DNA of 64,000 nt from positions 1 through 64,000 of the forward strand of contig NZ_PQHW01000029.1 in the NCBI RefSeq assembly GCF_003385215.1, in the 5' to 3' direction. Below, in pieces: positions 30-64,000 of this stretch. The stretch is from Amycolatopsis thermalba (GTDB lineage: Bacteria; Actinomycetota; Actinomycetes; Mycobacteriales; Pseudonocardiaceae). The notes under the pieces are model-generated. The model was not told the DNA's origin. It saw only the letters and a list, made by a program, of their open reading frames with translations, and did not search any database. How positions within the stretch are numbered: position 1 is the first letter of the stretch; every line of letters begins with the position of its first letter. The position numbers and the translations under genes are program-made.

Positions 30-134
30 CCCGCGCGCGAGTCCCAGGCTCCCGCGCGCGAGTTCCACGTTCCCGCGCGCGAGTTCCACGCTCCCGCGCG
101 CGAGTTCCACGTTCCCGCGCGCGAGTTCCACGTT
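30..134. repeat. Five 21-bp tandem repeats, forward orientation
   Basis: Five head-to-tail 21-bp units start at 30, 51, 72, 93 and 114. The consensus is CCCGCGCGCGAGTTCCACGTT with one to four changes in the first unit. No open frame with a plausible start or RBS uses them. The core GCGAGTTCCAC reappears in the opposite orientation at 158-220. Confidence 0.85.
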
Positions 135-157
135 CGCGGCGGTGTCGTGCTGCGGCC

Positions 158-220
158 GAATGTGGAACTCGCGGCCCTGAATGTGGGACTCGCGGTCCTG
201 AATGTGGGACTCGCGGGGTC
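158..220. repeat. Three 21-bp tandem repeats, inverted relative to 30-134
   Basis: Three 21-bp units begin at 158, 179 and 200, each starting GAATGTGG and containing ACTCGCGG. Their reverse complement, CCGCGAGTTCCACATTC, is almost the unit of the 30-134 array, so the two arrays face each other across a 23-bp gap. The last unit touches the stop codon of the SDR gene. The inverted arrangement could fold into a cruciform or act as a transcription end, which is inference. Confidence 0.8.
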
Positions 221-10087: not shown

Positions 10088-11490
10088 CCGACGAATGGGA
10101 CGTCGTGGTCGTCGGCGAAGCCGTCGTCGGGCTCGCCGCGGCCGTCTCCGCCGCCGAGCGGGGCGCTTCGGTGCTGCTGTTCGAATCCGAAACCGACCTC
10201 GGCGGCTCGACCCAGCTCTCCGCCGGCATGTTCACCGCCGCCGGCACGAGCGTGCAGGCCGCGCTGGGCGTCGAGGACTCCGCCGAGCGGTTCTTCCAGC
10301 ACTACATGGACCTCAACGCCTGGCAGCTCAACCCCGGGCTGATCGAGGCGTTCTGCCGCCACTCGGGCCCGACGCTGGAGTGGCTGATCGGCCTGGGCGT
10401 GGAGATCCCGGCGAAGGTGTCCGGCGACGCGCACACCCCGGGCCTGTGCCGGGCCGGGGTCGAGGACGTGTGGCGCGGGCACGTGCCCAAGGACCAGGGC
10501 TACGGCGTGGTGCAGGTGCTCGCCAAGGCCGCGCGCGCCCGGGGCGTCGAGGTCGTCTTCAACACCCGCGTCGAGCGGCTGATCGAGACAGGCGGCCGGG
10601 TCCGCGGCGTCGTCGCCGACGGCATCGAGGTGCGGGCGGGCGCGGTGGTGGTCGCGAGCGGCGGGTTCGCCCGGGACCCCGGCCTGCTGGCCCGTTACTA
10701 CCCGGCGGCGCTGCGGGCGGGCGAGGACCTGTTCGTCGTCGCCGCCGACGGCAGCCGCGGCGACCACCTGCGCTTCGGCGAGCAGGTCGGTGCCGGGGTC
10801 ACCGGCGCGGGCTGGGGCCTGATGCTGCCCACCGCGTACTTCCAGCGGCTGCACCACTGGCAGTCCGGGTTCCCGCCCAAGTCGCGGATCCACGTCGACG
10901 CGGCCGGCCGCCGGTTCATGGACGAAGACGCCTCCTACGCGGTGTCCAGCGACATCATCGAGGCCCACGGCGGCACCGCTTGGGTGATCTTCGACGAACG
11001 CGCCCGCCGCGGCCTGCCGCCCGGGTACGCGCACTGGGACGCCGGCCACGTGCTGGCCGAGGCCGAGGCCGGGCGCACGCTGCGCGCGGGCAGCCTCGAG
11101 GAGCTGGCCGGCAAGGCCGGGATCCCCGCGGACGCCCTGGTCGCCACCGTGCGCCGGTGGAACGAGCAGCTGCCGTCCGGTCACGACCCGGAGTTCCTGC
11201 GGCACCGCACGCTCGCCGCCAAGGGCGCGACCGGCCACCCGGACCCCATCGGCGAACCCCCGTTCTACGCGGCGCGCCTGCTGCCCGCGGAGCTGGTGTG
11301 CACGCACGCCGGGCTGGAGATCGACGCCCGCGCGGCGGTGCGCGACGAACGCGGCGAGGTCATCGCGGGCCTGTTCGCCGCGGGCGAGGCCGGGGCCGGC
11401 GTGCTCGGGCCGCGCTACGTCGGTGGCGGCAACGCGGTCGCCAACGCCCTGACCATGGGCCGCCTGGCCGGCGTCAACGCCGCGGCCTGA
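10084..11490 (+). CDS. FAD-dependent oxidoreductase, fumarate reductase/KstD type
   Basis: A 468-residue flavoprotein of the fumarate reductase/3-ketosteroid dehydrogenase superfamily. The N-terminal dinucleotide fold ([15 protein letters not shown]) is followed by an acidic residue (FESE) and [11 protein letters not shown] capping domain lies in the middle, and the C-terminal [27 protein letters not shown] closes the FAD site. The usual GxGxxG reads GEAVVG, so the second glycine is replaced by alanine. The GTG start overlaps the preceding stop (GTGA). Known members introduce or reduce a C=C bond next to a carbonyl. Steroid, terpenoid or cyclic ketone substrates are all possible. Confidence 0.85.
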
Positions 11491-47770: not shown

Positions 47771-48691
47771 TCAGGAGACGTAGGCCTGCAGCCGCGCGGT
47801 GCGGGACTCCTCGCGCAGCTTGCCCAGCGTGCGCCGCTCGATCTGGCGGATCCGCTCCCGCGTGACGCCCAGCTCGCGGCCGACCTCCTCGAGCGTGCGC
47901 TGGCGGCCGTCGTCCAGACCGCAGCGCAGCCGGATCACCTGCTGCTCCCGCGGTTTCAGCGTGGACAGCAGCTCGTCGATCTCCCGCCGCAACACGTGGT
48001 ACGACGCGGGCACCCCGGGCCGCCCCGGGTGGCACAGCAGATCCGCGAGCACGCTGCTGCCGTCCGTGCCGACGGTCTGGTCCAGGCTGATCGGCTCCTC
48101 GTTGTAGGAGAGCAGCTCGATCACCTGGAACGGCGTCAGGCTCAGCTCCGCGGCGATGTCCGCGTGCCCCGGCTCCCGGCCCAGCCGCGTGGCCAGCTCA
48201 CGCCGCGCGGCCAGGACCCGGTTGACCTGCTCGGCCAGGTGCACCGGGATGCGGATGGTGCGGGACTGGTCGGCCAGCGCGCGGCTGATCGCCTGCCGGA
48301 TCCACCACGTGGCGTAGGTGGAGAACTTGAACCCGGGCGTGTAGTCGTACTTCTCCACGGCCCGGATCAGCCCGAGGTTGCCCTCCTGGATCAGGTCCAG
48401 CAGCGACATGCCGCGGCCGGTGTAGCGCTTGGCGATGCTCACCACCAGCCGCAGGTTCGCCTCCAGCAGGCGGTTCTTGGCCTCCCGGCCCTCCTCGGCG
48501 ATCGTGCGCAGGTCGGCGTGCCGTTGCGGGTCGAGCACCCGCGTGGTCGCGAGCACGTGCTGGGCGTAGAGCCCGGCCTCGATCCGCTTGGCGAGCGTGA
48601 CCTCCTCCTCGAGGGTCAGGAGGTCGGTCCGGCTGATGCCGTTGAGGTACGCCCGGACCGGATCGGCCGGCTCGAAGAGCGGTGGGGTCAC
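47771..48691 (-). CDS. RNA polymerase sigma factor, principal-like (group 2)
   Basis: A 306-residue sigma-70 protein with region 1.2 ([29 protein letters not shown]), region 2 ([45 protein letters not shown] and [31 protein letters not shown]), region 3 and region 4.2 ([20 protein letters not shown]). The long acidic N-terminus of the housekeeping factor is missing, so it is a non-essential HrdD/SigB-like group 2 factor. GGAGG lies nine bases before the GTG. It is divergent from the ESX locus. Confidence 0.93.
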
Positions 48692-48758
48692 CTGCCGTTG
48701 CCTCCGACGAGCCAGGGGAGTCTGGTACGCCTAACAGAGTGGCCGACCGCCCTGGCAC

Positions 48759-48785
48759 GGAACCGACAGCCCGGCGAGGTGCGTC
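48759..48785 (+). promoter_or_regulatory. ECF-type promoter candidate before eccE
   Basis: GGAAC (48759-48763) and CGTC (48782-48785) are separated by 18 bases in the region between the divergent sigma factor and eccE. This resembles extracytoplasmic-function sigma promoters, although the distance to the eccE start (about 150 bp) is long. Weak support. Confidence 0.25.
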
Positions 48786-48939
48786 GAAGGGAAAAAGGCC
48801 AGGTCATGGGAAACCCGGCCGCGCGCGAGTGCGGTACGGTGCGGGTCGGCTACGGGTCCGCCGTGAGCGCCGCGGATTTTCGTGCGGTGATCATGGCCGG
48901 GTCCGGCGATATCGTTGGCTGGTGGAAGGGGCTCCGCAG

Positions 48940-50121
48940 GTGATCACGACTGGCCAGCAGCCGCAGGCCGCCGCGCAGTTCGACGCGCGCGGCGGCGGCT
49001 CCGCCGAGCTGCGCGCCCAGGCCAGGGGCCAGGCGTGGTTCCGGCCTGTGCGTGGCCGCGGGCGGCTCGGCGTGGTGAGCCTGGCCCGGCTGCTGGCGTT
49101 CGAGATCGTGCTCGTGGTCGTCGCCGCGGTCGGCGTGCAGGAACTGTGGGCGCTGATCGCCGCGGGCGTCATCGGGCTCGCGGTGATCGTCGGCATGTTC
49201 GGCCGCTCGAAGGGCCGCTGGTGGACCGAGAGCCTGATGCTGTGGATGGGTTTCCGGTCGCGCCGCGGCACCTCGGGCGAGATGCGGGACGACCCGCGGC
49301 TGACCGCGCTGTGCGAGCTGGCGCCGGACCTGGTCGTCGAGGACATCGACGGGCCGGGCGAGGGCAAGCTGGGCATGGGCAGCGACGAGGCGGGCTGGTT
49401 CGCCGTGCTGGAGGTGACCGGGGGCGCGGACGTGGCGACCCCGCCGGTGCCGCTGGCCGCGCTGGCCCGCACCGCCGCCGAGGCCGAGCAGGCCGGCGTG
49501 GTGATGCAGGTCGTGACGCACTCGGTGCCCGGACGCGAGCCGGGCACCCGGGACCGCGCCCTGTGGGTCGCGGTGCGGCTGGACGCCCGGGCCGTGGCCG
49601 AGTCGATGATCGACTCGCCGGGCGGGCGCCTGGACGTGCCCGCCGTGCTGGCCGAGATCACCCGCCGCGCCGAGCGGGTGCTGCGGCGGCGCGGGCTGCG
49701 GGCGCGGATGCTGACCGCGGACGAGGTCGTCGACGCGCTCGCCCGCTCCTGCGACCTGCTCCCCGGCGGCGGTCCGGCGCGCGTGCACGAGGCCTGGGAG
49801 TCGTGGCACTCCGCGCGCCTGACGCACGGGTGCTTCTGGATCCAGTCGTGGCCCGAGCCCGACCGCGGCACCAACCTGCTCGCCGCGCTGGCCGAGCTGC
49901 CCGCGGACCTGGTCAGCATCGCGCTGCTGCTGGAGCCCTCCTTCGACGGGACCACCCTGCGCTGCCTGGTCCGGGTGGCGGCCACGGCGCAGCGGTATCC
50001 GCAGGTGTGCGACCTGGTGCAGACGCTGGCCGGGCGCAACGGCGCGCGGGTGTCCCGTTTGGACGGTCAGCACGGCCCGGCCGTGTATGCTTCGGCACCG
50101 AGCGGGGGAGGTGCACGATGA
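48940..50121 (+). CDS. eccE: Type VII secretion protein EccE
   Basis: A 393-residue ESX membrane component. Two adjacent membrane helices lie near residues 45-85 (LARLLAFEIVLVVVAAVGVQELWALIAAGVIGLAVIVGMF) and are followed by a cytosolic domain with the EccE pattern WLGFR-like (LMLWMGFRSRRG), DGPGEGKLGMGSDEAGWFAVLEV, ALWVAVRLDAR and GGGPARVHEAWESWHSARLTHGCFWIQSWPE. EccE sits at the rim of the secretion channel and supports its stability. GTG 48940 is chosen over GTG 48922 because GGAAGGGG precedes it. The next gene overlaps by four bases. Confidence 0.88.
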   Translation: MITTGQQPQAAAQFDARGGGSAELRAQARGQAWFRPVRGRGRLGVVSLARLLAFEIVLVVVAAVGVQELWALIAAGVIGLAVIVGMFGRSKGRWWTESLMLWMGFRSRRGTSGEMRDDPRLTALCELAPDLVVEDIDGPGEGKLGMGSDEAGWFAVLEVTGGADVATPPVPLAALARTAAEAEQAGVVMQVVTHSVPGREPGTRDRALWVAVRLDARAVAESMIDSPGGRLDVPAVLAEITRRAERVLRRRGLRARMLTADEVVDALARSCDLLPGGGPARVHEAWESWHSARLTHGCFWIQSWPEPDRGTNLLAALAELPADLVSIALLLEPSFDGTTLRCLVRVAATAQRYPQVCDLVQTLAGRNGARVSRLDGQHGPAVYASAPSGGGAR

Positions 50122-51170
50122 ACGCCGGACAGTACCCGCCGTCGCGGCCTCAGCCGCCCGCGCAGGCGATGCCGCGGCCCATGATGCCGCCGGCGCAGGC
50201 CCAGCCCGGACCGCCGCCGGTGCAGCAGCAGCACGCGCCGATGCCGCCCGGACAGGCCGTGCTCGGCGCGCCGGCCGTGCCGCAGGCGCCCGCCGTGGTC
50301 AACGTGCCCGCCCCGGCGCAGACGCAGCAGCAGGGTTCCGCCGAAGCCGCGGCCGCCGCGACGACGGTCGAGGTCGCGCGGCCCGCGCTGGCGGTCGGCG
50401 TGCCCACGCCGATGCCGCCCCAGCCGCCCGGCCCCGGCCCCGCCGGTCCCGCGGCCGGCGCCGCGCGCGAGCACCGCGACTGGCGCACGCGACGGCACCG
50501 CTCGATCCCGCGGCTGCGGATCGGCGCGCACCACGCCTCCGACGCGGCGCTGGAGTTGCTGCAGGTGTCCGCGTCGTCGGTCGGGCTGCCGCTGGGGCGG
50601 GACCAGAACGGGTTCCCGGTGGCGCTGACGTTGTTCCGGCCGGAGCCGGTGTCGGTGAGCCTGATCGGCGGCGCCTGGGCGGCGCGGCTGATGGCGTTCC
50701 GCGCGCTGCGGGCCGGGGCGCGGCTGCTGGTGTTCTCGCAGCACCCGGCGGACTGGGTCCAGCTGGGACAGTCGGCGACCGGGCGGACCGACCGGGTCGC
50801 GGTGCTGGCGCCGGGTTCGCCGCCCGCGGTCACCGCCAGTGCCGACGCGCCCGTGCTGTGCCTGCACGACGCACCCCAGTCGCAGAGCGAGCCGGAGGCG
50901 TGGCAGACGAGGGTGCTGCTGCACCGGCGGCTCACGCCCGAGCGGGTGGGCGCCGTGCCGGGCTCGGACCTGGTGCTGATGCAGCGGCTCACGCCCAACG
51001 AGGCCTCACTGCTCGCCCCGGCGCTCCGGCTGACCCAGCGGACGTCGCAGCAGTTGCAGATGCTGCGGGACGACATGCTGGCCGTGCTCGCGGGGGAGAC
51101 CAACCACTACGTGTGGGTGGACCCGGCGCCGGCCGAGCGGGCACGCCTGGGACGGCCCGGGCGGTTCTGA
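50118..51170 (+). CDS. Proline-rich ESX-associated hypothetical protein
   Basis: A 350-residue protein. Residues 1-120 are low-complexity Pro/Gln/Ala, probably disordered. Residues about 130-350 form an alpha/beta domain (RIGAHHASDAALELLQVSASSVGLPLGRDQNGFPVALTLFRPEPVSVSLIGGAWAARLMAFRALRAGARLLVFSQ) that looks like a degenerate nucleotide-binding or EccE-like fold. No membrane segment is seen. GGGGGAGG precedes the ATG, which overlaps the eccE stop, so it is made with EccE and probably contacts it on the cytosolic face. The family is not one I can name. Confidence 0.75.
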   Translation: MNAGQYPPSRPQPPAQAMPRPMMPPAQAQPGPPPVQQQHAPMPPGQAVLGAPAVPQAPAVVNVPAPAQTQQQGSAEAAAAATTVEVARPALAVGVPTPMPPQPPGPGPAGPAAGAAREHRDWRTRRHRSIPRLRIGAHHASDAALELLQVSASSVGLPLGRDQNGFPVALTLFRPEPVSVSLIGGAWAARLMAFRALRAGARLLVFSQHPADWVQLGQSATGRTDRVAVLAPGSPPAVTASADAPVLCLHDAPQSQSEPEAWQTRVLLHRRLTPERVGAVPGSDLVLMQRLTPNEASLLAPALRLTQRTSQQLQMLRDDMLAVLAGETNHYVWVDPAPAERARLGRPGRF

Positions 51171-51400: not shown

Positions 51401-53533
51401 TCAGTTCCGTCCGTCCAGAGCGGACGGTTCCGCGGGCCGGTACCGCCTCTCCCGCTCCCCGGTCGCGACGACGGGGCCACCCGGCGTCGCGACCTCGAAG
51501 ACGGCCTCGTCGGTGACCGGCGCCTTCTCGTCCTTCCGGACGACACGCTGGGCGCGATCGGCGTGCACGACCGGCCTGGCGTGCCGGTCCGGAGCCGTGA
51601 CCACCGGCACCGGCGCCTGCAGGAAGTCCGGGATCTCCCCGGCGGAACCGGCGACGTACTCCTGCGCCGAGTACCGCCCGTCGAACACCGGCGTCGTGCT
51701 CACCGGCAGGTTCGCGACGAACTCCGACTGCTTGCGGTCGCCCTGCGTCTTCCGGCGCTTGCGTTCGGCCTGCCACTCGCTGAACGTCTTGGCCGGCGCC
51801 TTGCGGTGCGGGTTGGACAGCACCGGCGGCGCGCCCACGCCCGGCGGCAAGCCTTCGCGGGTCCCGCTGGGTGCTTCCTTCGCGCTGCCACCGCGCTTGC
51901 TGTCGTTGTTGAGCACCGGCGCGGTCGACGGTGGCGGCTGGAAGGCCGGCGGCCGCTCGGACAGGTCGCTCATCAGCGGTGCGCCGGGCCGCCGACCCGC
52001 CTGGACGTCGCGGCCGTTCGGTGCCTGGCCGCCCGGCGGAAGCGGCGGGGCCGAGCCCGCGTTCGGGCCCATCGCCGACTCCGCGCCCGGCGGTACGGGC
52101 GGCGCCGACTGCACGGCCTGCCGGAACTCCGAGCTGGCTGCCAGGCTCAGGTGCTCGTCGAAGGGCAGCGCGGTGTCGAACGTGGGCGCGCCGGGCTGGT
52201 TGCCGCCCGGCTCCTTGCTCTGCGGTTGCTGCGGCACCTGACCGCCCGGCGGCGGGGTGATCGTGCCCGGCGGGTACGGGCTGCTGTTCTGGCCGAACGA
52301 CGGCGGGGCGCCCGGAGCGGTCCCCGGGGTGGGGGTCGACGTGGTGTTCAGGCCGAGCGTCGACGGGACGTTGTTCGGGGCCTTGCCGGAGAACAGGTTG
52401 GGAGTGGCGCCGTTGTTGCCGAACGAGGGCGCGGCCGGCGCCTTGCCGCCGCCGAACCCGTTCGTGAACATCGGGGCCGCGCCGGCGAGGCCGAGCAGAG
52501 CCGGATTGATGCCGGGCGCGTTCCCGGGCGGCGGCGTGCTCGTGAACCCGTCCGGCGGTGTCGGCGCGGTCGGCGCCGGACCGGGCGGCGTCGGCGCGAC
52601 CGGTGCCGGGCCGGGGGGCGCTGTCGGCGCCTGGTTGCCGTTGAAAGCCGGGTTGTCCGTGGGCGCGTTGTTCCCGTTGAAGGCGGGCGAGTCGCCCGGG
52701 GCCTTCGGCGCGTCACCGGGTGCGTTGGGCGCGTTCCCGGGCACATCGGGGGCACCGCCCGGAGGGGCGCTCGGCGCGCCACCCGGCGGTGTGCCGGGCG
52801 CGCCGGGCGCGCCGATCGTCGGCGGACGCGGCGCGCCGGTCGCCTCCGGGTGCAGGATCGCGTTGAGGAGCTCGATTTTCGGCGCGTGCGCGGACTGCAG
52901 CTTGTAGATGTAGGGCGCGTACTGGCCCGCGATCGTCTCGGCGAGTTCGCGCGCGTCCTTGTCGTACTTCTCGGTGACCTTGTTGCCCGCTTCGAGCTTG
53001 TCCTGCGCGTTGCCGGGCTTGGTGCCGACCTTCGCCTCGTAGAACGCGCCCATGTCGTGGGTCGCGTTCTCCATCGCGTCCTTCTTCTCGGCCTTGTAGT
53101 CGTCGTACAGGGCCTGCATCTTGGCCTGTGCCTCGTACATCGTGTTCGACAGGCCGTACAACGCGGTGCTGTTCCGCAGCGCGGCGTCCTGCCACTCGCG
53201 CAGGTGCGCCAGCACCATGCCGACCTTGGCGAGGAAGACCTGTTTGGCGGCGGGGGACTTCCAGTGGTCGGCCAGCGTCTGGGTCTGCTCGCGCAGGTTG
53301 TCGGCGACGGTTTGGAGCGCCAGCTGGACGTTGCCCCACTGCCGGGCGCGGTCGGCGGTGGTGCCCGGCTGCTCGCCCTTGACGATGGCGAGGTAGAGCG
53401 ACTCGATGCCCTCCGTGGAGAAGTCGTAGTTCTTGCAGACCGCGGGAGGCGAATCCTTACCGATGTCGTAGTAGCCCCCACCGACACCGGTGCCGATCTT
53501 GCTCAGGTCGTAACCGAAGTACTCGTCGCCCAT
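51401..53533 (-). CDS. Large PPE-like ESX substrate candidate
   Basis: A 710-residue protein. Residues about 30-240 form a helical bundle with a WxxxA-like turn (ADHWKSPAAKQVFLAKVG) and long amphipathic helices, as in PPE or long WXG proteins. Residues about 250-560 are a Pro/Gly/Asn/Ala linker with imperfect APTPPGPAP and PAFNGN repeats. The C-terminus contains a basic stretch (WQAERKRRKTQGDRKQSE) and a short conserved-looking tail. There is no signal peptide, as expected for type VII substrates. ATG 53533 or GTG 53542 may be the start. It follows the 357-residue gene with at most an 8-base gap and is downstream of eccC on the same strand. Confidence 0.75.
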   Translation of the reverse strand: MGDEYFGYDLSKIGTGVGGGYYDIGKDSPPAVCKNYDFSTEGIESLYLAIVKGEQPGTTADRARQWGNVQLALQTVADNLREQTQTLADHWKSPAAKQVFLAKVGMVLAHLREWQDAALRNSTALYGLSNTMYEAQAKMQALYDDYKAEKKDAMENATHDMGAFYEAKVGTKPGNAQDKLEAGNKVTEKYDKDARELAETIAGQYAPYIYKLQSAHAPKIELLNAILHPEATGAPRPPTIGAPGAPGTPPGGAPSAPPGGAPDVPGNAPNAPGDAPKAPGDSPAFNGNNAPTDNPAFNGNQAPTAPPGPAPVAPTPPGPAPTAPTPPDGFTSTPPPGNAPGINPALLGLAGAAPMFTNGFGGGKAPAAPSFGNNGATPNLFSGKAPNNVPSTLGLNTTSTPTPGTAPGAPPSFGQNSSPYPPGTITPPPGGQVPQQPQSKEPGGNQPGAPTFDTALPFDEHLSLAASSEFRQAVQSAPPVPPGAESAMGPNAGSAPPLPPGGQAPNGRDVQAGRRPGAPLMSDLSERPPAFQPPPSTAPVLNNDSKRGGSAKEAPSGTREGLPPGVGAPPVLSNPHRKAPAKTFSEWQAERKRRKTQGDRKQSEFVANLPVSTTPVFDGRYSAQEYVAGSAGEIPDFLQAPVPVVTAPDRHARPVVHADRAQRVVRKDEKAPVTDEAVFEVATPGGPVVATGERERRYRPAEPSALDGRN

Positions 53534-53541
53534 GCTCGTCA

Positions 53542-54615
53542 CTACCCCCCTGGTATCGAGCGTCGTGCCTGGTCGAGTTCGGGATGGCCCTGCCGCACAT
53601 CGGCGCCGGTGGGCAGGTCGTGCTGGGCGCCGACCGTCCGCTGGTCGGTTTTCGTGGGGACCTTCTCGTCCCTGTTGCCGTCCCGGTCGACGTCGTTGAC
53701 GTCCTTCTGCATCGACTCGCTGTAGTACTGGCGGGAGTGCGTGCCGTCCTGGTGGTTGTACGTGACCACGTGCTGGCTCTTGGCGGGGGCGTCGGACTTG
53801 ACGGGCTTGCCGTCCTTGTCGTAGCTCTGCGACGTCGTGACCTGGTGGACGACGTTGGGGTCCGAGTCCGTGTCGTGCTTCGTCGTGCGGCGTGTCTCCC
53901 CGGCCGGCGCACCGTTGTAATAGGCGGTGGTGACCGTCGTGGTCTCGTGGTCGCCCTTGGTCGAGGTGATCATGTACTGACGGTTGCCGTTCTTGTCGTC
54001 CAGGTACTCGGTGGTCACGTTGCCGTTGGTCTGGACGGTGCGGATGCCGCCATCGGGAGTCCGGAACGTGGTGATCGTCATGTTGCCGACGACGATCTGG
54101 TTGAGCTGCTCGTCCTTCCCGGTCTGTGTCACCCCGGTGCCGGCCGGTGGCGTCAGGTACTCCGCGACGGTCTTCTTCTCGTCCAGCCAGGACGGGACGC
54201 CTTCCGGCTTCTTGGCGCCGTCCATCCGGAAGGCCCACTGGAGGACTTCGAGCATCGCGGAGTTGCCGCCGTCCATGTTCTCGAAGAAGTCGCCGAAGAT
54301 GTAGCCGACGGACTCGAGGACCTTGACGTCCTGGTGCGCGTCGGGCATGAACATCCCGAGTTCCTGCGCGTTGCGGTCGGCGAAGGCCTGCATGTCCTGG
54401 CCCGGCTCGAACATCGTGGACATCAGCATGTCCTTGCCGCCGGGGCCCTGCAGCGCCGACTGGGCCGACATCATGTCGCTGTTCAGGTCGGCGGCGATCA
54501 GGCCGAGGTTCTTGGCGTAGTTGCGGAAGTTCGTCGGATCCAGCTCGAGCTCGGCACCTTTGGCAGCCCACTCGGCGGATGGGACGGTGCCCGGTTCGTC
54601 CGGTATCGGTGCCAC
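53542..54615 (-). CDS. ESX-associated protein with helical N-terminus and beta-rich tail
   Basis: A 357-residue protein of unknown family. Residues about 10-150 are helical (DPTNFRNYAKNLGLIAADLN, DMQAFADRNAQELGMFMPDAHQDVKVLESVGYIFGDFFENMDGG) and could pair with the N-terminal bundle of the 710-residue neighbour, like a PE with a PPE. Residues about 165-300 are beta-rich, with Thr-rich strands reading TTEYLDDKNGNRQYMITS and TTTVTTAYYNG, similar in style to toxin-delivery repeats. GGGAGGG stands six bases before the GTG. It lies between eccC and the 710-residue gene on one strand. A secreted role is inference. Confidence 0.72.
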   Translation of the reverse strand: MAPIPDEPGTVPSAEWAAKGAELELDPTNFRNYAKNLGLIAADLNSDMMSAQSALQGPGGKDMLMSTMFEPGQDMQAFADRNAQELGMFMPDAHQDVKVLESVGYIFGDFFENMDGGNSAMLEVLQWAFRMDGAKKPEGVPSWLDEKKTVAEYLTPPAGTGVTQTGKDEQLNQIVVGNMTITTFRTPDGGIRTVQTNGNVTTEYLDDKNGNRQYMITSTKGDHETTTVTTAYYNGAPAGETRRTTKHDTDSDPNVVHQVTTSQSYDKDGKPVKSDAPAKSQHVVTYNHQDGTHSRQYYSESMQKDVNDVDRDGNRDEKVPTKTDQRTVGAQHDLPTGADVRQGHPELDQARRSIPGG

Positions 54616-54736: not shown

Positions 54737-57700
54737 TCAGGCCTGTGGAGGCAGCTCGGCGAGCTGCACCAGCCGCGCACCCCCGCTGCGGGTGATCAGC
54801 CAGCCACGTCCCGGCGGCAGCTTCTGCGGCCGGATGTTGCCCAGCAGCGGACCCTCCTCGCGGTTGCCCGACATCAGGATCCCCGGCGAGGCCAGGTCCC
54901 GGATCCGGGCGATGACCGGGTCGAACATCGCCCGCGCGGCGCCACCGCTGCGACGGGTGACCACCAGGTGGAGGCCGATGTCGCGGCCCTGCGTCATGTA
55001 CTCCAGCAGCGGTGCGAGCGGGTTGTCGTGCGGGTTCGGGGCGACCAGGTCGTAGTCGTCGACCAGGATGAACAGTTCCGGGCCGCTCCACCAGCTGCGG
55101 GAACGGAGCTGTTCCGGCGTGATGTCACCTCCCGGCAGTCGCTTCTGCATCGCGTCGATGGTCAGACGCACCATTTCCTGAACGGTTCCGCTCGCGGTCG
55201 CATAACCGATCAAGTACTCGTCCGGGATCAGGCCGAGCAGGCTCCGCCGGAAGTCGATGAGGGCGATCTGGGCCTGGTCGGGCGTGTACCGGGCCATGAT
55301 GCTCGTGGCCAGCGCCCGCAGGAACGTGCTCTTGCCGGATTCGACGTCGCCGAACAGCACCAGGTGCGGTTCGGCGGTGAAGTCCAGGCCCACCGGCTGC
55401 AGGTCGGCCTCGGAGATCCCGATCGGGATGCCGTTCTCGTCCGGCGCGGGCAGCGCCGAGTAGGGCAGCATCGGCGGGAGCAGCCGGACCCGCGGCGCGG
55501 GGGCGCCGGGCCAGGCGGCGTTCACCGACGCGACGAAGTGCTGGACGCCGTCGGCGAGGTCCTCCGCGGTCTCCTTGCCGTCCACCCGCGGGACGGCCGA
55601 CAGGAAGTGCGCGCCGTCCGGCGACAGACCACGCCCGGGCGCCTGTTCCGGGACACCCGCGGCCTGCCGCCGCCCGATCACCGAGTCCACCGGGTCGCCC
55701 AGGCGCAGCTCGAGCCTGCTGCCGAACATGTCGCGCAGGTTCATCCGCAGGTCCATCCAGCGGTTGGCGGTCGCGATCACGTGCACGCCGAACGCGAGGC
55801 CGCGGTTGACCACCTCGGCGATGTCGGCCTCCAGGTCCTCGAACTCCGCGCGCAGGGTGCCCCAGCCGTCCACCACGAGGAACAGGTCGCCGAACCGGTC
55901 CTCCGGGAACCGGCCCTCGCGGCGCAGCTTGCGGTAGGTCGCCATGCTGTCGATGCCCTGCTCGGCGAACCGCTGCTCCCGCTCGGCGATCAGGGTGCGG
56001 GCCTCCGCGACGCTGCGCCGCACGCGGTCGACCTCGCGCCGGGTCGCGACCCCGCCGACGTGCGCCAGGTCGCGCAACGCGGTCAGACCGCCACCGCCGA
56101 AGTCGAGGCAGAAGAACTGCACCTCGGACGGGGTGTGGGTGAGGGCGAGGCTCGCGATCACCGCGCGGACCGCGGTGCTCTTGCCGCTGTGCGGGCCACC
56201 CACGATCGCGAGGTTGCCGCCCGCGCCCGACAGGTCCAGCCAGCACACGTCGCGGCGCTGGTCGGCGGGCCGGTCGATGATGCCGGCCGCCGCCCGCAGC
56301 GCGCCGCGGTGCTCCCGGATCCCGGTGGTCAGGCCGCGCTCGGGATCGGTGACCAGCGGTTCCAGCAGCTTGTCCAGCGTCGGCGGCTCGTTCAGCGGCG
56401 GCAGCCACACCTGGTGCGCCGGCACGCCCTGCCCCTCCAGCCGCTCGACCAGCACGTCCATCAGCGTCTCGCCCAGGTCGTCGGCCTCGGCGGGCTTCGG
56501 CTGCTCCACCGGTTTCTCCGCCAGCCGCGGACGCAGGTAGGCGGTCGAGTAGTCCTGCACCGGGTCGATCTGGCGGCCCTCGTCGTCGGTGCGCTGGATC
56601 GTGCCGCGCCGGTGCACCCCGGACACGTACGCCGCCTTGAAGCGGGTCAGCTCGTCCACTCCGGTCTTGAGGAAGCCGTTGCCGGGGGAGCGGGGCAGCT
56701 GGAACGCGTCCGGCGTGCCGAGCACGACCCGGCTCTCCATCGCGGAGAACGTCCGCAGCGCGATGCGGTAGGACAGGTGCGAGTCCAGCCCGCGCAGCCG
56801 GCCCTCCTCCAGCCGCTGCGAGGCGAGCAGCAGGTGAACACCGAGCGAACGGCCGACGCGTCCAATCTGGACGAACATGTCGATGAAGTCCGGCCGCGCG
56901 GTCAGCAGTTCGGAGAACTCGTCCACCACGATCAGCAGCGCGGGCAGCGGGTCGAGCGGCGCGCCCGCGGTGCGGGCCTTCTCGTAGTCGCGCTGCGAAC
57001 CGTAGTTGCCCGCCTTGCGCAGCAGCTCCTGCCGCCGCACCAGCTCGCCGCCGATCGCGTCCAGCATGCGGTCCACCAGGTGCAGCTCGTCGGCCAGGTT
57101 GGTGATCACCGCGCTGGTGTGCGGCAACCGGTCCAGCTTGGTGAAGGTGGCGCCACCCTTGAAGTCCACCAGCACGAAGTTGAGGATCTCCGAATCGTGG
57201 GTGACGGCCAGCGCCAGCACCAGCGTCCGCAGCAGCTCGGACTTGCCGGAGCCGGTGGCGCCGACCAGCAGGCCGTGCGGGCCCATGCCGTCCTGCGCCG
57301 ACTCCTTGAGGTCCAGCTCCATCGGGCGGCCGTCGGCGGTGATGCCGATCGGCACCCGCAGCCGGTCCCGGTTGGACCGGGTCTCCCAGCTCTTCGCCAG
57401 CTCGAACTCGTACGGGTCGCCGAGTCCGAGCAGGTCGGTCAGCTCCAGCGACCCGGACAGCGGCTGCTCGCTGGCGGTCAGCGCGGACAGCCGCAGCGGC
57501 GCGAGCGTGCGCACCAGGCCGCGCATCTCCTCGATGCCCAGCCCGTCGGCGGTGCCGATGTTGCCGGCGCCGTCCATGGTGCGGCTGGTCAGGTTGCCGT
57601 CCGGGGAGATGTCCAGCACCAGCGTGGCCGCGTCGAGCAGGCGCGGCGGCTCGCCGGAGAGGTCGATGACGGTGACGCCCTCGACGCCGCCCTCGATCAT

Positions 57701-58693
57701 CAGGTGCTCGGACCCGCCGACGTCGCCGCCGTCGACGAACACCACCACGTGCGTCGAGCCCTCGATCGGCTGCGTGCCCGGGTTGAACCGCGGCCGGTTG
57801 GCCACCACGTCGTCGAGCATCGCCTCCAGCGCCGTCACGCTCGGCGCCACCAGCCGGATCTGGCCGACCGCGTCCGTCTTGGACGGGTGCAGCGCGTGCG
57901 GCAGCCACTTGGCCCAGTCCCACAGCTCGCGCTCGCGCACGCAGAACGCGGTCAGCACGTCGCCCGGCGCGTGGAACGTGCCCAGCTGCGCCACCAGCGC
58001 CCGCGCCATCGCGCGCTTGCGGTCGTCGTCACCGGTCAGGTAGATCCGCGAGAACCCGCGCAGCGCGACCGCGACCGGCAGGTCCGGCACGGTCGAATAG
58101 GTGGTCACGAACTTGCGCAGCGCCATCGCGCACAGCGGTTCCAGCTCGTCGATCGGCTTGGTCTCCGGCGGCACCAGCGGCGTCGCCAGCTCCTGCGAGC
58201 CCAGCCCGATCCGGATGACGGTGAAGTCCCAGTCGCCGGGGCGGCGCTCCCACAGCCGCGCGCTCTGCGCGGTCGACCACAGCCGCGCCGGATCCGGGTG
58301 GCGGTAGAACATCGCCGTGCGCTGCTGGTCGATCGTGTCCCGCACCTGCGCGCGCAGCTGCGACAGCCGGCGCATGTACCGGCGGCGGTTCGCGATCATC
58401 TCCTGCTTGCTCGCGCCCTGCCCGTTCTGGCTGATGATCTGGAACAGGATCATGCCGAGCACCGCGACGCCGTACAGACCGCCGGCGACGTACATCAGCG
58501 GACCGGACCGCCCGGCGCCGATCAGCAGCGCCATGCCGCCGGTGCCGGCGAGCATCGGCAGGATCATCAGCACCCGCGACCAGCTCTTGCCCGCGGGCGG
58601 CGGGTTCTCGGGTGGGGGATCGAGCACCACGTCGCCCGACGGCAGGTCAGGCGCGGGCCGCCGGAGTGGCCGCTTGACTATGATCGTTCCCAA
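54737..58693 (-). CDS. eccC: Type VII secretion ATPase EccC (EccCa-EccCb in one chain)
   Basis: A 1318-residue FtsK/SpoIIIE-type motor. Two membrane helices lie near residues 40-85. Three ATPase domains follow: Walker A Lys484 in GATGSGKS with Asp591-Glu592 in VVDEF; Lys838 in GGPHSGKS with Asp942-Gly943; and Lys1121 in GDVESGKS with Asp1212-Asp1213. Only domain 1 keeps the catalytic Glu, which fits the known picture that domains 2 and 3 bind ATP and substrate signals without fast turnover. The start is an unusual TTG at 58693 with GGGAGG nine bases upstream, giving MGTIIVKRP. It is divergent from eccD. Confidence 0.95.
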   Translation of the reverse strand: MGTIIVKRPLRRPAPDLPSGDVVLDPPPENPPPAGKSWSRVLMILPMLAGTGGMALLIGAGRSGPLMYVAGGLYGVAVLGMILFQIISQNGQGASKQEMIANRRRYMRRLSQLRAQVRDTIDQQRTAMFYRHPDPARLWSTAQSARLWERRPGDWDFTVIRIGLGSQELATPLVPPETKPIDELEPLCAMALRKFVTTYSTVPDLPVAVALRGFSRIYLTGDDDRKRAMARALVAQLGTFHAPGDVLTAFCVRERELWDWAKWLPHALHPSKTDAVGQIRLVAPSVTALEAMLDDVVANRPRFNPGTQPIEGSTHVVVFVDGGDVGGSEHLMIEGGVEGVTVIDLSGEPPRLLDAATLVLDISPDGNLTSRTMDGAGNIGTADGLGIEEMRGLVRTLAPLRLSALTASEQPLSGSLELTDLLGLGDPYEFELAKSWETRSNRDRLRVPIGITADGRPMELDLKESAQDGMGPHGLLVGATGSGKSELLRTLVLALAVTHDSEILNFVLVDFKGGATFTKLDRLPHTSAVITNLADELHLVDRMLDAIGGELVRRQELLRKAGNYGSQRDYEKARTAGAPLDPLPALLIVVDEFSELLTARPDFIDMFVQIGRVGRSLGVHLLLASQRLEEGRLRGLDSHLSYRIALRTFSAMESRVVLGTPDAFQLPRSPGNGFLKTGVDELTRFKAAYVSGVHRRGTIQRTDDEGRQIDPVQDYSTAYLRPRLAEKPVEQPKPAEADDLGETLMDVLVERLEGQGVPAHQVWLPPLNEPPTLDKLLEPLVTDPERGLTTGIREHRGALRAAAGIIDRPADQRRDVCWLDLSGAGGNLAIVGGPHSGKSTAVRAVIASLALTHTPSEVQFFCLDFGGGGLTALRDLAHVGGVATRREVDRVRRSVAEARTLIAEREQRFAEQGIDSMATYRKLRREGRFPEDRFGDLFLVVDGWGTLRAEFEDLEADIAEVVNRGLAFGVHVIATANRWMDLRMNLRDMFGSRLELRLGDPVDSVIGRRQAAGVPEQAPGRGLSPDGAHFLSAVPRVDGKETAEDLADGVQHFVASVNAAWPGAPAPRVRLLPPMLPYSALPAPDENGIPIGISEADLQPVGLDFTAEPHLVLFGDVESGKSTFLRALATSIMARYTPDQAQIALIDFRRSLLGLIPDEYLIGYATASGTVQEMVRLTIDAMQKRLPGGDITPEQLRSRSWWSGPELFILVDDYDLVAPNPHDNPLAPLLEYMTQGRDIGLHLVVTRRSGGAARAMFDPVIARIRDLASPGILMSGNREEGPLLGNIRPQKLPPGRGWLITRSGGARLVQLAELPPQA

Positions 58694-58813
58694 GACCGAA
58701 AACCTCCCGAGCGCCCGGGTGCGCCAGCATAGAGCTTTCCGCCAGCCTAGTGTCGCGCTTTAATGGATACTCTCCCAGCCGGGCTCGGGGTCCAATTTGG
58801 AGGTAGGGGCAGC

Positions 58814-60214
58814 ATGACGTCGGCGATGGGCACGACCCTCGCGAAGGTGAGCATCACCACGCCCAAGCGCGGGATCGACGTCGCGCTCCCGGAGAACGTG
58901 CCGGTCGCGGAACTGCTCCCGTACATCCTGCGCCACGCGGGCGAGGACGCGCCGGACACCGGCGAGCAGCACGGCGGCTGGTCGCTGCGGCGGCCCACCG
59001 GCGAACGCCTCGACGGGCAGCAGACGCTCGCCGCGCAGCAGGTGCGCGACGGCGAGATCCTGCACCTGGTCCCGGGTCCGGTGGACTGGCCGGAGATCGA
59101 GTACGACGACCTGGTCGAGGCGATCGCCAGCGGCGCCCGGCGCTACGGCCGCAGCTGGGGCCGCGCCGCCACCCGGCGGGCAGGGCTCGTCATCGCGGCG
59201 GTGCTGCTGTGCGGGGGCAGCCTGGTGTCCCTGTTGTTCGAACCACCGTGGCTCGACGCCGGCCTGATCACGCTGGCCGCCGCGGTGGTCCTGACCGCGC
59301 TGGGCATCGTCGTCGCGCGCGCGGTGCCGGACGCTTACGCGGGCGCGGTGTTCGCCGGATCGGCGCTGCCGTACGCCTTCCTCGGCGGGTACCTGCCGAC
59401 CGCGCCGGACCACCTGGGGCTGTTCTCCTTCGGCTCCGCGCAGCTGCTGCTGGGCGCCATCTCGCTGCTGGTGTTCGGCATCGTCGGCTACCTCGGCGTC
59501 GGCGCGACGAGCCGGGTGTTCGTCGCCGCCATCACCACCGGTTTCCTCGGCGCGCTGGGGGCGTTGTTCGGCGGCTGGATGGACCCGGACGCGGCCGGCG
59601 CGCTGGTCCTGACCATCGCGATCGGTCTGCTGCCCGGATATCCGTGGCTCGCGCTGCGGCTGGGCCGGGTGCCGCTGCCCGCGCTGCCGCAGCGGTCGGC
59701 CGACCTGCTCAACGACGAACCGCACCCGGCCACCCCGGCGGTGTTCGACGCGGCCGCCCGCGCCGACGAGCTGCTCACCGGTTTCCTCACCGGCGCCGCG
59801 CTGATCAGCGCGTGCGCGGCGATCCCGCTCGCCGCGCACGCCGGCGGGTCGCGGCTGATCATGCTGATCCTGGCGTGCGCGGCGCTGCTGCTGCGCGCCC
59901 GGCTGTTCCCGGTGCCGCGCCAGCGGATCCCGTTGCTGGTCGCCGGGCTGTGGGTGTTCGCGCTGCTGGCCGCCTGGTGCTTCGGCACCGCGTCGGGCAA
60001 CGGCGGGCTCGGGCTGTTCCTGCTGGCGCTGGTGGTGCTCGCGCTGCTGGTCGCGGCCGCCGGGCTGGTCTACTCCCGCAAGAACCCCTCGCCGTGGTTC
60101 GGCCGCATCGCCGACATCGTGGACGTCATGGCTATCGTGGCCCTCATCCCGTTCGCGGGGTTCATCACCGGATTCTTCACCTACGTCCAGGGCCTCATGG
60201 CCTCGATCGGCTGA
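58814..60214 (+). CDS. eccD: Type VII secretion integral membrane protein EccD
   Basis: A 466-residue membrane protein. Residues about 8-95 form a ubiquitin-like (YukD-type) domain (KVSITTPKRGIDVALPENVPVAELLPYILRHAG, RDGEILHLVPG). Eleven membrane helices then follow. EccD lines the membrane pore of the ESX complex as a dimer. GGAGGTAGGGGC precedes the ATG at 58814; the in-frame ATG at 58763 has no RBS. It is divergent from eccC across 120 bp and is followed by eccB nine bases later. Confidence 0.93.
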   Translation: MTSAMGTTLAKVSITTPKRGIDVALPENVPVAELLPYILRHAGEDAPDTGEQHGGWSLRRPTGERLDGQQTLAAQQVRDGEILHLVPGPVDWPEIEYDDLVEAIASGARRYGRSWGRAATRRAGLVIAAVLLCGGSLVSLLFEPPWLDAGLITLAAAVVLTALGIVVARAVPDAYAGAVFAGSALPYAFLGGYLPTAPDHLGLFSFGSAQLLLGAISLLVFGIVGYLGVGATSRVFVAAITTGFLGALGALFGGWMDPDAAGALVLTIAIGLLPGYPWLALRLGRVPLPALPQRSADLLNDEPHPATPAVFDAAARADELLTGFLTGAALISACAAIPLAAHAGGSRLIMLILACAALLLRARLFPVPRQRIPLLVAGLWVFALLAAWCFGTASGNGGLGLFLLALVVLALLVAAAGLVYSRKNPSPWFGRIADIVDVMAIVALIPFAGFITGFFTYVQGLMASIG

Positions 60215-60223
60215 GGGATAGGC

Positions 60224-61624
60224 GTGCCCACTCGTCGCGACCAGCTGCAGGCCTACCAGTTCATGATGCAGCGGGTCACCTCCGCGCTCATCGTGCACGA
60301 GACCGATCCGGAGCTGACCCCGCTGCGGCGCGGAGTGGGCGCGGTGTTCGCCGGGGTCATGATCGCGGTGCTCATCGCCGCGGGCTTCGGCGTGTACGGC
60401 GTGTTCACCGGAGTCGGCGGCACGTCCTGGAAAACGGACGGCGCGGTGATCATCGAGCGGGAGACCGGCGCGACCTTCGTGTACCAGTCCGGGGAGCTGC
60501 AGCCGACCCTGAACTACGCCTCGGCGCGGCTGCTGACCAGCGCGGACAAGGCCGGGCCGCACCGCGTGGCCGGCAAGAACCTGGCCGGCCTGCCGCGCAG
60601 GCCCGCGGTGGGCATTCCCGGTGCGCCGGACTCGCTGCCGCCCGCCAGCCCGGCGACCGCGACGCCGTGGACGATGTGCTCGGTGCTGGGCCAGAACCTG
60701 GCCGGCGCTCCGCTGACCACGACCACGCTGATGGTCGGGCAGTCCATGCCGGGCGGGGTGCCGCTGGGCCAGCGCGCGATCCTGGCCAGCGACTCCACCG
60801 ACGGCACCGTCTACCTGGTGTGGAACAACCACCGCTACCGGATCACCGACGGCGCGGTGATCCGCTCGGTGTTCGGCGCGCAGGCCGGTCCGGTGGACGC
60901 GGGCACGGCCTGGCTGAACGGCCTGCCGGTGGGGCAGGACATCGGCCGGATCGACGTGCCCGGCCAGGGTTCGCCGTCCGCCGTGCTCAGCGGGTTCGCC
61001 GTCGGTGACGTGGTCTACTACCCGCTGTCCCGCGGCGTGCAGTACTACCTGGTGCGGCAGGAGGGGCTGGCGCCGCTGACCGAGCTGCAGGTGCGGATCA
61101 TCTCCGGCCAGTACTCGGTGCGGCCCAAGGAGATCACCGCCGCGGCCGCGACCGCCGCGCCCACCAGCAACGCGCTGGTGCCCGCCGAGGGCGAGGCGGC
61201 GCCGCCGGCGCTGCCCCCGGACCTGGTCACCGTGCCCGCCGAGGGCCGCGCCGCGCTGTGCTCGGAAACCCACGACGCCCGCACCGACCCGGTGATCTCG
61301 ATCGGCGGCGACACGAGCGTCCTGGACCCGGCCATCGACACCACCGCGGAGAGCGGCACCGGCACGAAGCTGGCCGACCGGGTGCTGGTCCCGCCGGGCG
61401 GCGTCGCCGTGGTGCGGGTGCTGCCCTCGGCCACCGCGACCACGGGGGCGTACACGCTGGTCACCGACGCCGGCCTGCGCTACCCGGTGCCCGACGACAA
61501 GGTGCTGGGTCAGCTGGGGTACTCCGCGTCGTCGGCGGTCGACATCCCCGCCGCGCTCGTGCAGCGCATCCCGGAGGGCCCGACGCTGAACCCGTCGGCG
61601 GCGATGCTGTCGGCGGTCCCGTAG
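60224..61624 (+). CDS. eccB: Type VII secretion protein EccB
   Basis: A 466-residue protein with the EccB N-terminus PTRRDQLQAYQFMMQRVTSALI, one membrane helix near residues 44-65, and a large external domain with repeats forming a propeller-like structure (SARLLTSADKAGPHRV, WTMCSVLGQN, LASDSTDGTVYLVWNNHRYRI, SALCSETHD-like). Two cysteines (near 148 and 346) may form the conserved disulfide. The GTG has GAGGGATAGG just upstream. EccB crowns the channel on the outer face of the membrane. Confidence 0.94.
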   Translation: MPTRRDQLQAYQFMMQRVTSALIVHETDPELTPLRRGVGAVFAGVMIAVLIAAGFGVYGVFTGVGGTSWKTDGAVIIERETGATFVYQSGELQPTLNYASARLLTSADKAGPHRVAGKNLAGLPRRPAVGIPGAPDSLPPASPATATPWTMCSVLGQNLAGAPLTTTTLMVGQSMPGGVPLGQRAILASDSTDGTVYLVWNNHRYRITDGAVIRSVFGAQAGPVDAGTAWLNGLPVGQDIGRIDVPGQGSPSAVLSGFAVGDVVYYPLSRGVQYYLVRQEGLAPLTELQVRIISGQYSVRPKEITAAAATAAPTSNALVPAEGEAAPPALPPDLVTVPAEGRAALCSETHDARTDPVISIGGDTSVLDPAIDTTAESGTGTKLADRVLVPPGGVAVVRVLPSATATTGAYTLVTDAGLRYPVPDDKVLGQLGYSASSAVDIPAALVQRIPEGPTLNPSAAMLSAVP

Positions 61625-61664: not shown

Positions 61665-61773
61665 CTTGACCAGCGGTTTTGTCCCGTGTCAGGGTGGTAC
61701 GGGGCGACGGGGGGTTGTCAGCCGCCGCGCCTACTCTGCTGGTAAATGTCCCGCGACATGGGGGGTGACAGGC

Positions 61774-62097
61774 GTGGCCCTGAATCTCGTACATGATCAA
61801 GTCACCAGGCTGAACCAGCTCCTCGCCGATGCCAAGACACGCGGCGAGGAGATCTGCAAGAGCATGCACGGCGACCTCGAGAACGTCGTCGGGTCGGAAT
61901 GGGCCGGCAAGGCCTCGTCGACCGGTCAGCTCTCGTCGTCCGACCTGCTGGCCTTCTGGCACAGCAACCTCGCCCCGATCCTCGACAGGCTGATGAACGG
62001 GATCACGGGCACCCAGAACATCCTGACCAACCAGGACGACGACGACTCCAGCGCCATCAGCGCCGCCGCTTCGGGCATGAACTTCGGCCGCCTGTAG
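61774..62097 (+). CDS. WXG100 family protein
   Basis: A 107-residue helical hairpin protein with the turn motif SEWAGKASS (W-A-G) in the middle and long helices on either side (LVHDQVTRLNQLLADAKTRGEEI; LLAFWHSNLAPILDRLMNG). This is the EsxA/EsxB class, exported as heterodimers. GTG 61774 is chosen because GGGGGGTG lies about seven bases upstream. The next WXG100 gene follows 35 bp later, and together they form the usual esx pair. Confidence 0.88.
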   Translation: MALNLVHDQVTRLNQLLADAKTRGEEICKSMHGDLENVVGSEWAGKASSTGQLSSSDLLAFWHSNLAPILDRLMNGITGTQNILTNQDDDDSSAISAAASGMNFGRL

Positions 62098-62529: not shown

Positions 62530-63807
62530 TCACGACCGCTTGGGGCGGTCGCTGAACAGTTCCACCGGCGGCTCGGGACGCTCGTCCTCGGGCCGGTCCT
62601 GCGGAACGGGAGCCAGCCCGGCACGCCAGCGGCGGCGACGGCCGAGCGGTCCGAACACGACGATCGCGCTCACCAGCACCACGAGGGCGAAGCCGCCCGC
62701 GGCGAGGCCGAAGGCCCAGTCGTCGCTGCGGTCCTCAGCGGCTTGCCGGGCGGCGACGTCCGGCGGGATGGTCGGCGGGACCAGGGGCGGGAGCGCCACC
62801 GGGTTTCCCGCGGCCACCTGGTCGGACACCGCCTGGTACGGGTTCACCACGCCGTAGCCGTAGGAGGCGCTTCCGGTGCCTTCCGGGGCCGGTGCCGCCG
62901 TGGCGTACAGCCGTTTCGCGACGTCCTGATTGGACAGCTGGGGCAGGTGGGAGCGGACCAGCGCGACCGTGCCGGCCACGTACGCGGTGGCGAACTCGGT
63001 GCCGGCCACCGCGCCCAGTCCGGTGTTCGGGAACGTCGTGACGACGTTGGCGCCCGGGGCGACCAGGTCGACCGCCGTGGCACGCGAATCCTGGGTGACC
63101 AGCCCGCTCTCGGCGAGGGACCCCACTCCGATCACGCCGTCGTAGCCGGCCGGGTAGGGCACCAGGCCCGGTGCTTCGTTCGACTGCCGCTCGCCGACGG
63201 CGGCCACCACCACGATGTTGCGCGACAGCGCCCGCTGCACCGCGCCGCGCAGGGCACCGTTGTCCTCGTAGGTGATCGTCGGGACGGCGATGACGCTCGC
63301 GTTGCGGTCGACCGCCCAGTTGATCGCGGCGGCCAGGACCTGGGGCGCCACGCTCTCCCGCGGTTCGCGGCCCGTCGGGTACGAGTCGCCGACGACCTTC
63401 GCGGACAGGATCTGCGCACCCGGGGCCATGCCGTGGAACCCCACCACGGACGTGGGCTGCGCGGCGATGATGCCGCTCACCCCGGTGCCGGTGCCGAGAC
63501 AGTCCGGGCTGCCGCTGGACTCTCCGATGTCCGCCGGCGCGAAGTTCGCCCGCTCGGCCAGATGCCCGGCGAGCTGCGGATTGTCCGCCGCACCGGTGCT
63601 GACCACGGCGACGCGCTGGCCGGCCCCGGTGGTCAGCGGCCACACCCGATCGGGTGCCAGCAATTGTTGCGACCACGGAACGGGAACCACGAGCGTCCCG
63701 GAAACGACACAGTTCTGCTGGGCCCGCGCGGCCGGCGGGGCCACCGCCACGACGGCGAGCCCGACGGCCGCGGTGACCAGTGCCGCACGGAGGCGCTTGG
63801 AGTTCAC
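62530..63807 (-). CDS. mycP: Catalytically inactive mycosin-like subtilase (MycP homologue)
   Basis: A 425-residue type-VII-linked S8 protease homologue: signal peptide (KRLRAALVTAAVGLAVVAVAPPAARA), subtilisin fold, a proline-rich linker and one C-terminal membrane helix (FGLAAGGFALVVLVSAIVVF). The overall fold signatures are present, but the triad is not. The Asp of VAVIDTG is Ser70 (VAVVSTG), the His of GHGT is Thr106 (LGTGTG), and the Ser of GTSxAxP is Glu271 (GTEFATAYVAG). Mycosins also hold the ESX membrane complex together independent of proteolysis, so a structural role fits. GTG 63807 fits the signal peptide; ATG 63840 is possible. It is divergent from the gene at 63879. Confidence 0.88.
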   Translation of the reverse strand: MNSKRLRAALVTAAVGLAVVAVAPPAARAQQNCVVSGTLVVPVPWSQQLLAPDRVWPLTTGAGQRVAVVSTGAADNPQLAGHLAERANFAPADIGESSGSPDCLGTGTGVSGIIAAQPTSVVGFHGMAPGAQILSAKVVGDSYPTGREPRESVAPQVLAAAINWAVDRNASVIAVPTITYEDNGALRGAVQRALSRNIVVVAAVGERQSNEAPGLVPYPAGYDGVIGVGSLAESGLVTQDSRATAVDLVAPGANVVTTFPNTGLGAVAGTEFATAYVAGTVALVRSHLPQLSNQDVAKRLYATAAPAPEGTGSASYGYGVVNPYQAVSDQVAAGNPVALPPLVPPTIPPDVAARQAAEDRSDDWAFGLAAGGFALVVLVSAIVVFGPLGRRRRWRAGLAPVPQDRPEDERPEPPVELFSDRPKRS

Positions 63808-63878
63808 GGCGGCGATGCTAGCGGAGTGACCGGTGATCATGGCAATGTCGCCACTGTGCCGGATGGACGGAGGTAGTC

Positions 63879-64000
63879 ATGAGTTCCCCTTCGGGGCGCG
63901 TGAATCCCGCGCTGATCGGCATGCTCGAGCAGATCAAGAAAGCCACCGAGGAGCTGCCGAAGGCCAGTCAGCGGATGATGCAGCTCACCGGGGTGGGCTG
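63879..64000 (+). CDS. Partial gene running off the window, helical protein
   Basis: GGAGG five bases before the ATG opens MSSPSGRVNPALIGMLEQIK followed by KATEELPKASQRMMQLTG, and the frame is open to the window end. The 40 visible residues are amphipathic helix. It is divergent from the mycosin gene and so probably part of the ESX locus, perhaps an ESX-associated regulator or substrate. It is too short to identify. Confidence 0.55.
   Translation, partial: MSSPSGRVNPALIGMLEQIKKATEELPKASQRMMQLTGVG

Follow-up and report, generated by a model that had tools for sequence, protein, structure and literature searches.

A mycosin without its catalytic residues is fixed in one type of ESX locus in the family Pseudonocardiaceae. 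The gene was noticed in a stretch of 64,000 nucleotides from Amycolatopsis thermalba (the window, meaning this whole stretch), and the finding is wider than the preliminary description of that DNA had stated. We consider it probable, at roughly three chances in four, that the protein is the dedicated mycosin of this ESX type, has lost its peptidase activity and has been retained as a structural, complex-stabilizing subunit. The earlier proposal of a maintained pseudoprotease is supported by an open frame, low dN/dS, a domain conserved to the same degree as in intact sister proteins, linkage to a single ESX type and a clade of 31 aligned sequences (rows).

The pseudo-mycosin and its locus

The gene had been placed in an otherwise complete ESX locus, which is borne out by the presence of EccB, EccC, EccD and EccE together with two small esx-like genes (Table 1). 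Some of the related loci have a gene similar to the Esx-like one at 61666..62097 in the equivalent position. A 350-aa protein with a proline-rich N-terminus, which gave no Pfam or NCBIfam match, is encoded after eccE (50118-51170, + strand), and a YbaB/EbfC-like gene (window positions 63879-64000, + strand; L102:3880-4302) lies just upstream of the mycosin gene and divergent from it. Past window position 64000, and following the YbaB-like gene and a 125-aa gene, L102:4710-6353 encodes a protein of at least 548 aa with an N-terminal WXG100_2 domain, which runs off the contig end and is a possible ESX substrate.

Table 1 Features of the ESX locus and the pseudo-mycosin, in window coordinates unless residues are given
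Feature	Position	Strand	Evidence or remark
eccE	48682..50121	+	Pfam EccE 67.9 bits, over cut-off; NCBIfam 86.4 bits versus cut-off of 108
710-aa proline-rich protein, possible substrate	51401..53533	-	weak PPE-like N-terminus (E 0.0066, 16.9 bits, cut-off 26)
357-aa protein, possible substrate	53542..54615	-	no family match beyond chance level
eccC, single polypeptide with EccCa and EccCb domains	54737..58693	-	profile match
eccD	58763..60214	+	Pfam/NCBIfam profile match
eccB	60224..61624	+	Pfam/NCBIfam profile match
Esx-like small protein	61666..62097	+	true start inside the ORF; PF06013 13.5 bits, below cut-off (61756-62097 scanned)
WXG100 (Esx) protein, 97 aa	62133..62426	+	PF06013 31.4 bits, cut-off 27.3
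Pseudo-mycosin ORF	62530..63840	-	436 aa from ATG at 63840; 425 aa from in-frame GTG at 63807
Pseudo-mycosin layout	S8 domain, residues ~61-342		putative signal peptide, N-terminal extension, S8 domain, putative membrane helix inside the predicted helix 360-396 and a short tail
Codon 81, Ser replacing catalytic Asp	63598..63600	-	
Codon 117, Thr replacing catalytic His	63490..63492	-	
Codon 217, Glu replacing oxyanion-hole Asn	63190..63192	-	loss missed in the preliminary description
Codon 282, Glu replacing catalytic Ser	62995..62997	-	

As claimed earlier, the reading frame of the pseudo-mycosin is open, and the frame is also kept across the clade of its close relatives. The residue numbers first given (S70, T106 and E271) hold when counted from the GTG, which is a plausible start since several orthologues begin near it; counted from the ATG, as is done here, the same residues become S81, T117 and E282 (an offset of 11). 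The NCBIfam mycosin profile (T7SS_mycosin, TIGR03921) matches the window protein over positions 2-352 of 353 (1e-70) at 238.7 bits, below the curated cut-off of 278.75, which all 31 genes of the clade miss. The Pfam Peptidase_S8 profile (PF00082) matches it over its cut-off at 92.7 bits, and the label of S8 serine peptidase from automatic annotation would mislead for genes of this clade.

An AlphaFold2 model based on 18 aligned sequences had a mean pLDDT of 72.4, with values >80 in 22 of the 28 ten-residue blocks between residues 61 and 340 and weak N-terminal, linker and tail regions. Its best matches in Foldseek were subtilisins, followed by MycP3 (4kg7), MycP1 (4j94 and 4hvl) and MycP5 in ESX-5 (7np7) with E values of 5.6e-21 to 2.2e-20. 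Taken with the Pfam match, this predicted subtilisin- and MycP-like fold supports the earlier view that the fold is probably intact. Hydrophobic segments occur at both ends, where helices 9-32 and 360-396 are predicted at low-to-medium pLDDT, and the protein is presumably anchored in the membrane.

The motifs VAVVSTG, LGTGTG and GTEFAT are present in the ORF as first described, and S81, T117 and E282 fall in the columns of the catalytic Asp, His and Ser. These columns were placed by pairwise alignment to solved subtilisins and by alignments to intact mycosins, and the profile of one alignment (A2; 18 rows, mostly intact enzymes) reads MycP1 and MycP3 in the same register as the window protein. 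Besides the oxyanion-hole Asn, the preliminary description had missed a Ser that is invariant in intact mycosins and is replaced by proline in the window protein (P187); we take this to be the Ser of the substrate-side strand. An alternative triad elsewhere in the protein finds no support, as the D, H and S columns are unambiguous and the clade has no invariant Ser, His, Glu or Lys. A sequencing fault can be rejected because D, H and N are replaced in every row of the clade, including those from the single-contig genomes G130, G113 and G175. Judged by these residues, the window protein probably has no peptidase activity.

The dead clade and its ESX type

We searched 297 genomes of the family and took as dead-clade genes those with ≥52% identity to the window protein, the next group reaching ≤46%. 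The clade so defined comprises 31 genes from 29 genomes and eight genera (window counted), and a gene of this clade is present in 12 of the 19 genomes sampled from the genus to which the window belongs. What had been seen in one protein holds among its orthologues: the catalytic Asp is replaced by S, G or A and the catalytic His by T, I, L, V, S or N in 31/31 rows; the oxyanion Asn, also lost throughout, reads E, D, Q, H, R or T (E, Q or D in 26 of them); and the catalytic Ser has become E, A, G or Q in 28, being retained in three rows of one genus (G034, G068 and G096). In quick trees of 84 and of 144 rows (no bootstrap, root not inferred), these dead rows formed one clade with SH-aLRT support of 100 in each and shared a larger branch with intact mycosins (support 98 and 90, respectively). 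Because the four catalytic columns were masked in both trees, we can rule out that the clade is an artefact of shared loss.

A scan of named genomes, which was seeded with dead-clade patterns and hence is no census, retained 80 loci and among them at least five named dead members (Amycolatopsis deserti, A. marina, Saccharopolyspora soli, S. indica and Prauserella endophytica). Class-wide, 52 of 394 genomes matched at E 1e-50, and the 30 loci listed from that scan consist of the window, one intact locus of the same family (L213) and 28 loci from outside the family, all of them intact. Eight rows outside the dead clade depart from the D, H, N, S pattern (L163, L167, L191, L192, L196, L201 and the second matches in L159 and L164). 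Being remote or poorly aligned, these rows are not put forward as dead mycosins. L163 and L167 stayed in the trees and add to the counts of changes reported below.

The dead mycosin is tied to one ESX type. With the N-terminal 500 aa of the EccC in the window as query, we found 29 loci at ≥72% identity in 28 of the 297 genomes, with other listed matches at ≤58%, and all 28 of these genomes carry a dead mycosin; the 29th dead-mycosin genome is G096, in which the neighbouring EccC is cut by the contig end. The order eccC, eccD, eccB, mycP was seen in 26 of the 28 neighbourhoods examined, some of which also have an esx match. It was not seen in G263, which has its mycosin and EccC on separate contigs, or in the second locus of G014 (L062), which has the mycosin gene placed between eccC and eccB. 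A mycosin profile built for this analysis matched once in the 64-kb window and once per neighbourhood in 27 of 28 clade neighbourhoods, the remaining one being that of G018, and no further match was found beside the dead ones in these stretches (6.4-19.9 kb, with short flanks only for G279 and G174, plus the whole window). G018 holds two dead copies in tandem (L063:7765-8724 and 8884-10206), the first reaching only to about query residue 321, short of the linker and the membrane anchor. A single loss in the ancestor of the window's ESX type would be the simplest origin of the clade.

Purifying selection on the dead form, which had been left as a check, is evident from pairwise dN/dS of about 0.10-0.43 (0.096-0.430) in 55/55 pairs (Nei-Gojobori, 11 genomes of the genus); together with the open frames, these values rule out a pseudogene. 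In the window genome (G000), G187 and G146, the dead mycosin gave 0.18-0.27 compared to 0.23-0.25 for the close intact paralogue of the type found on contig C50, and three pairs with G198, for which the paralogue is more distant, gave 0.48-0.51 against 0.34-0.43 and are little informative. Mean domain entropy over 294 columns was 1.14 bits in the dead clade versus 1.10 bits in 25 chosen intact sisters. In contrast, the four catalytic columns went from 0 bits in the intact sisters to 1.06, 2.10, 1.81 and 1.97 bits in the dead clade, which places them between the 49th and 83rd percentiles of the domain, and in 29 of the 31 clade rows the Ser at position 187, invariant in the intact sisters, is replaced by P, A or T. 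A domain entropy like that of the sisters combined with drifting catalytic columns indicates that the fold is under constraint and the active site is not. The C-terminal tail, in which a proline-rich stretch precedes a hydrophobic-Phe or Phe-Leu pair, is shared with many intact sisters of the family and so does not set the dead clade apart.

Intact and further altered mycosins in the family

A second copy elsewhere in the genome had been suggested, and two are present. The window genome (98.5% complete; 7.2 Mb in 222 contigs) gave 12 mycosin-profile matches. Three of them, that of the window and those on contigs C43 and C50, are strong full-length matches with 239.6-351.5 bits; the next scores 142.1. 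All three are mycosins, but D, H, N and S are present in the two paralogues (G000:C43 and G000:C50) only, and as sequences these appear intact. Each is the sole mycosin-profile match on its own contig and lies beside ESX genes, the three full-length EccC matches of the genome are on C145 (the window's contig), C43 and C50, and a Pfam S8 search of the genome returned one match on the window's contig. Because the C43 and C50 copies belong to two other ESX loci and the window holds no second match, the dead mycosin is the only one of the window's ESX locus. A mycosin over the NCBI cut-off was found in 29/29 dead-clade genomes, and the listed loci from the 28 others (L232-L260) have D, H, N and S in 29/29, so intact mycosins of other loci may help the window-type ESX in trans.

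Sixty further mycosins of the family were read, of which 50 were intact and 10 were not. In the larger tree, six rows with Asp replaced by Gly and His by Arg form a second dead clade (support 100), a clade of three has lost Asn and replaced Ser by Glu with Asp and His kept (support 100), a pair reads DRIG/GRVG (support 93) and the single rows L073, L076 and L081 also have altered catalytic residues. The second dead clade consists of L098, L261, L262, L269, L273 and L277 (from G161, G174, G186, G277, G019 and G158); Ser is lost in five of these six as aligned, and L098 lies near EccB and EccC. In L270, L276 and L278, in L263 and L264 and in the three single rows, part or all of the catalytic residues are gone, apparently through separate losses.

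Parsimony gave seven changes in each tree, of which well-supported branches force at least three with 144 rows (over all rows, with L163 and L167 from outside the family counted) and five with 84 rows; these counts are approximate, as some dead rows outside the main clade sit on long branches. The dead mycosins outside the main clade apparently represent separate losses within the family. We put forward tentatively, at somewhat under even odds, that switching off proteolysis in the chamber is a recurrent, selected route, and that the resulting class of ESX machines does no processing, its mycosin acting purely as a ring that provides structure or gating and perhaps has its pocket re-used. If true, one whole ESX type in at least eight genera and several mycosin lineages of the family run with dead mycosins.

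Function and comparison with known systems

According to two studies of mycobacterial mycosins (PMC5082899, PMC5156307), active-site mutants of MycP1 and MycP5 still support secretion, as does MycP1 N239Y, which is mutated at the oxyanion Asn, and dead MycP1 even raised secretion. When MycP1 or MycP5 is absent, secretion fails and the stability of the complex is compromised, and these sources demonstrate the stabilizer role only for mycobacterial ESX-1 and ESX-5. In ESX-5, the EccB5-dimer chamber is described as being capped by a MycP5 trimer with its sites facing the cavity (PMC8131196). In the cited literature it is an open question how type VII secretion can require mycosins but not their cleavage.

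By analogy, the pseudo-mycosin would most likely be exported, anchored by its C-terminal helix and seated on EccB in the periplasm-side chamber, where it would keep EccB, EccC, EccD and EccE assembled, like MycP5 in ESX-5. We infer both this position and the stabilizing role from the mycobacterial systems, and a scaffold as the remaining function is consistent with the published dead mutants of MycP1 and MycP5. Given the dead site, substrates of the window-type ESX would be exported without being cut by its mycosin. With fold and locus kept and the cleavage residues gone, the protein would be a structural cap, in an ESX machine whose cargo is not processed by its own mycosin.

Other readings have to be weighed against this one. 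The dead site may have been re-used, so that the groove or the changed residues bind a peptide, a substrate or an envelope ligand and gate the chamber, comparable to the sensors CspC and CspA. We regard this as rather unlikely: the catalytic columns and the substrate-strand Ser vary within the clade as expected of freed sites, even though 18 positions are near-fixed in the clade and different in intact sisters (including Q75, A147, V150, D152, W175, V186 and P271), the oxyanion position is E, Q or D in most rows and CspC/CspA offer a precedent (PMC6636752, PMC12880746). It is hardly credible that the protein still cleaves with unusual residues, such as a Glu in the manner of Ser-Glu-Asp enzymes, or Asp/Thr. 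E282 and E217 do sit in active-site columns, and a Ser-Glu-Asp triad is reported in serine-carboxyl proteinases (PMC11593635); however, none of the 60 positions that are strictly invariant across the 31 rows is a Ser, His, Glu or Lys, and residues vary both at position 282 (E, A, G, S or Q) and at position 117 (T, I, L, V, S or N). D113, T119, D152, D193, D258, C44 and C114 are invariant in the clade, but D113, C114 and T119 mark no new site, as they are equally invariant among the mostly intact enzymes of A2.

Decay of the gene, with the ESX type working without a mycosin or borrowing the intact one of another locus, is to our mind quite improbable. Open frames, low dN/dS, a domain conserved like that of intact sisters and linkage over eight genera all argue against it, and each mycosin is stated to work within its own ESX system (PMC5082899), although intact mycosins are at hand in all 29 genomes and one tandem copy in G018 ends before its anchor. 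We therefore favour a retained structural subunit.

In the open-access literature, no report of a naturally dead mycosin was found by title or start of abstract among the matches listed, and no paper was found for "mycosin" with "pseudoprotease". A dead mycosin kept over genus-level divergence would be natural evidence that the non-catalytic role can suffice in the long term, and in this soil actinobacterium and the relatives that kept the dead version, evolution seems to have repeated the laboratory finding that a mycosin can count as a structural part and not as an enzyme. The dead clade also offers a system outside pathogenic mycobacteria in which to study the non-catalytic role without residual activity.

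The window protein resembles MycP1, MycP3 and MycP5 in its predicted fold, its N-terminal hydrophobic segment and extension, its C-terminal hydrophobic helix and its EccB/C/D/E locus, but lacks their Asp/His/Ser triad, oxyanion Asn and presumed substrate-strand Ser. The laboratory mutants MycP1 S354A and N239Y and MycP5 S461A are mycosins without activity, as the dead-clade proteins probably are, and are reported to keep secretion (PMC5156307, PMC5082899); unlike them, the dead clade is natural, spans eight genera, has lost all catalytic sites in most members and belongs to one ESX type. CspC and CspA of Clostridioides spore germination are natural S8 pseudoproteases too, but they are soluble regulators outside any secretion complex.
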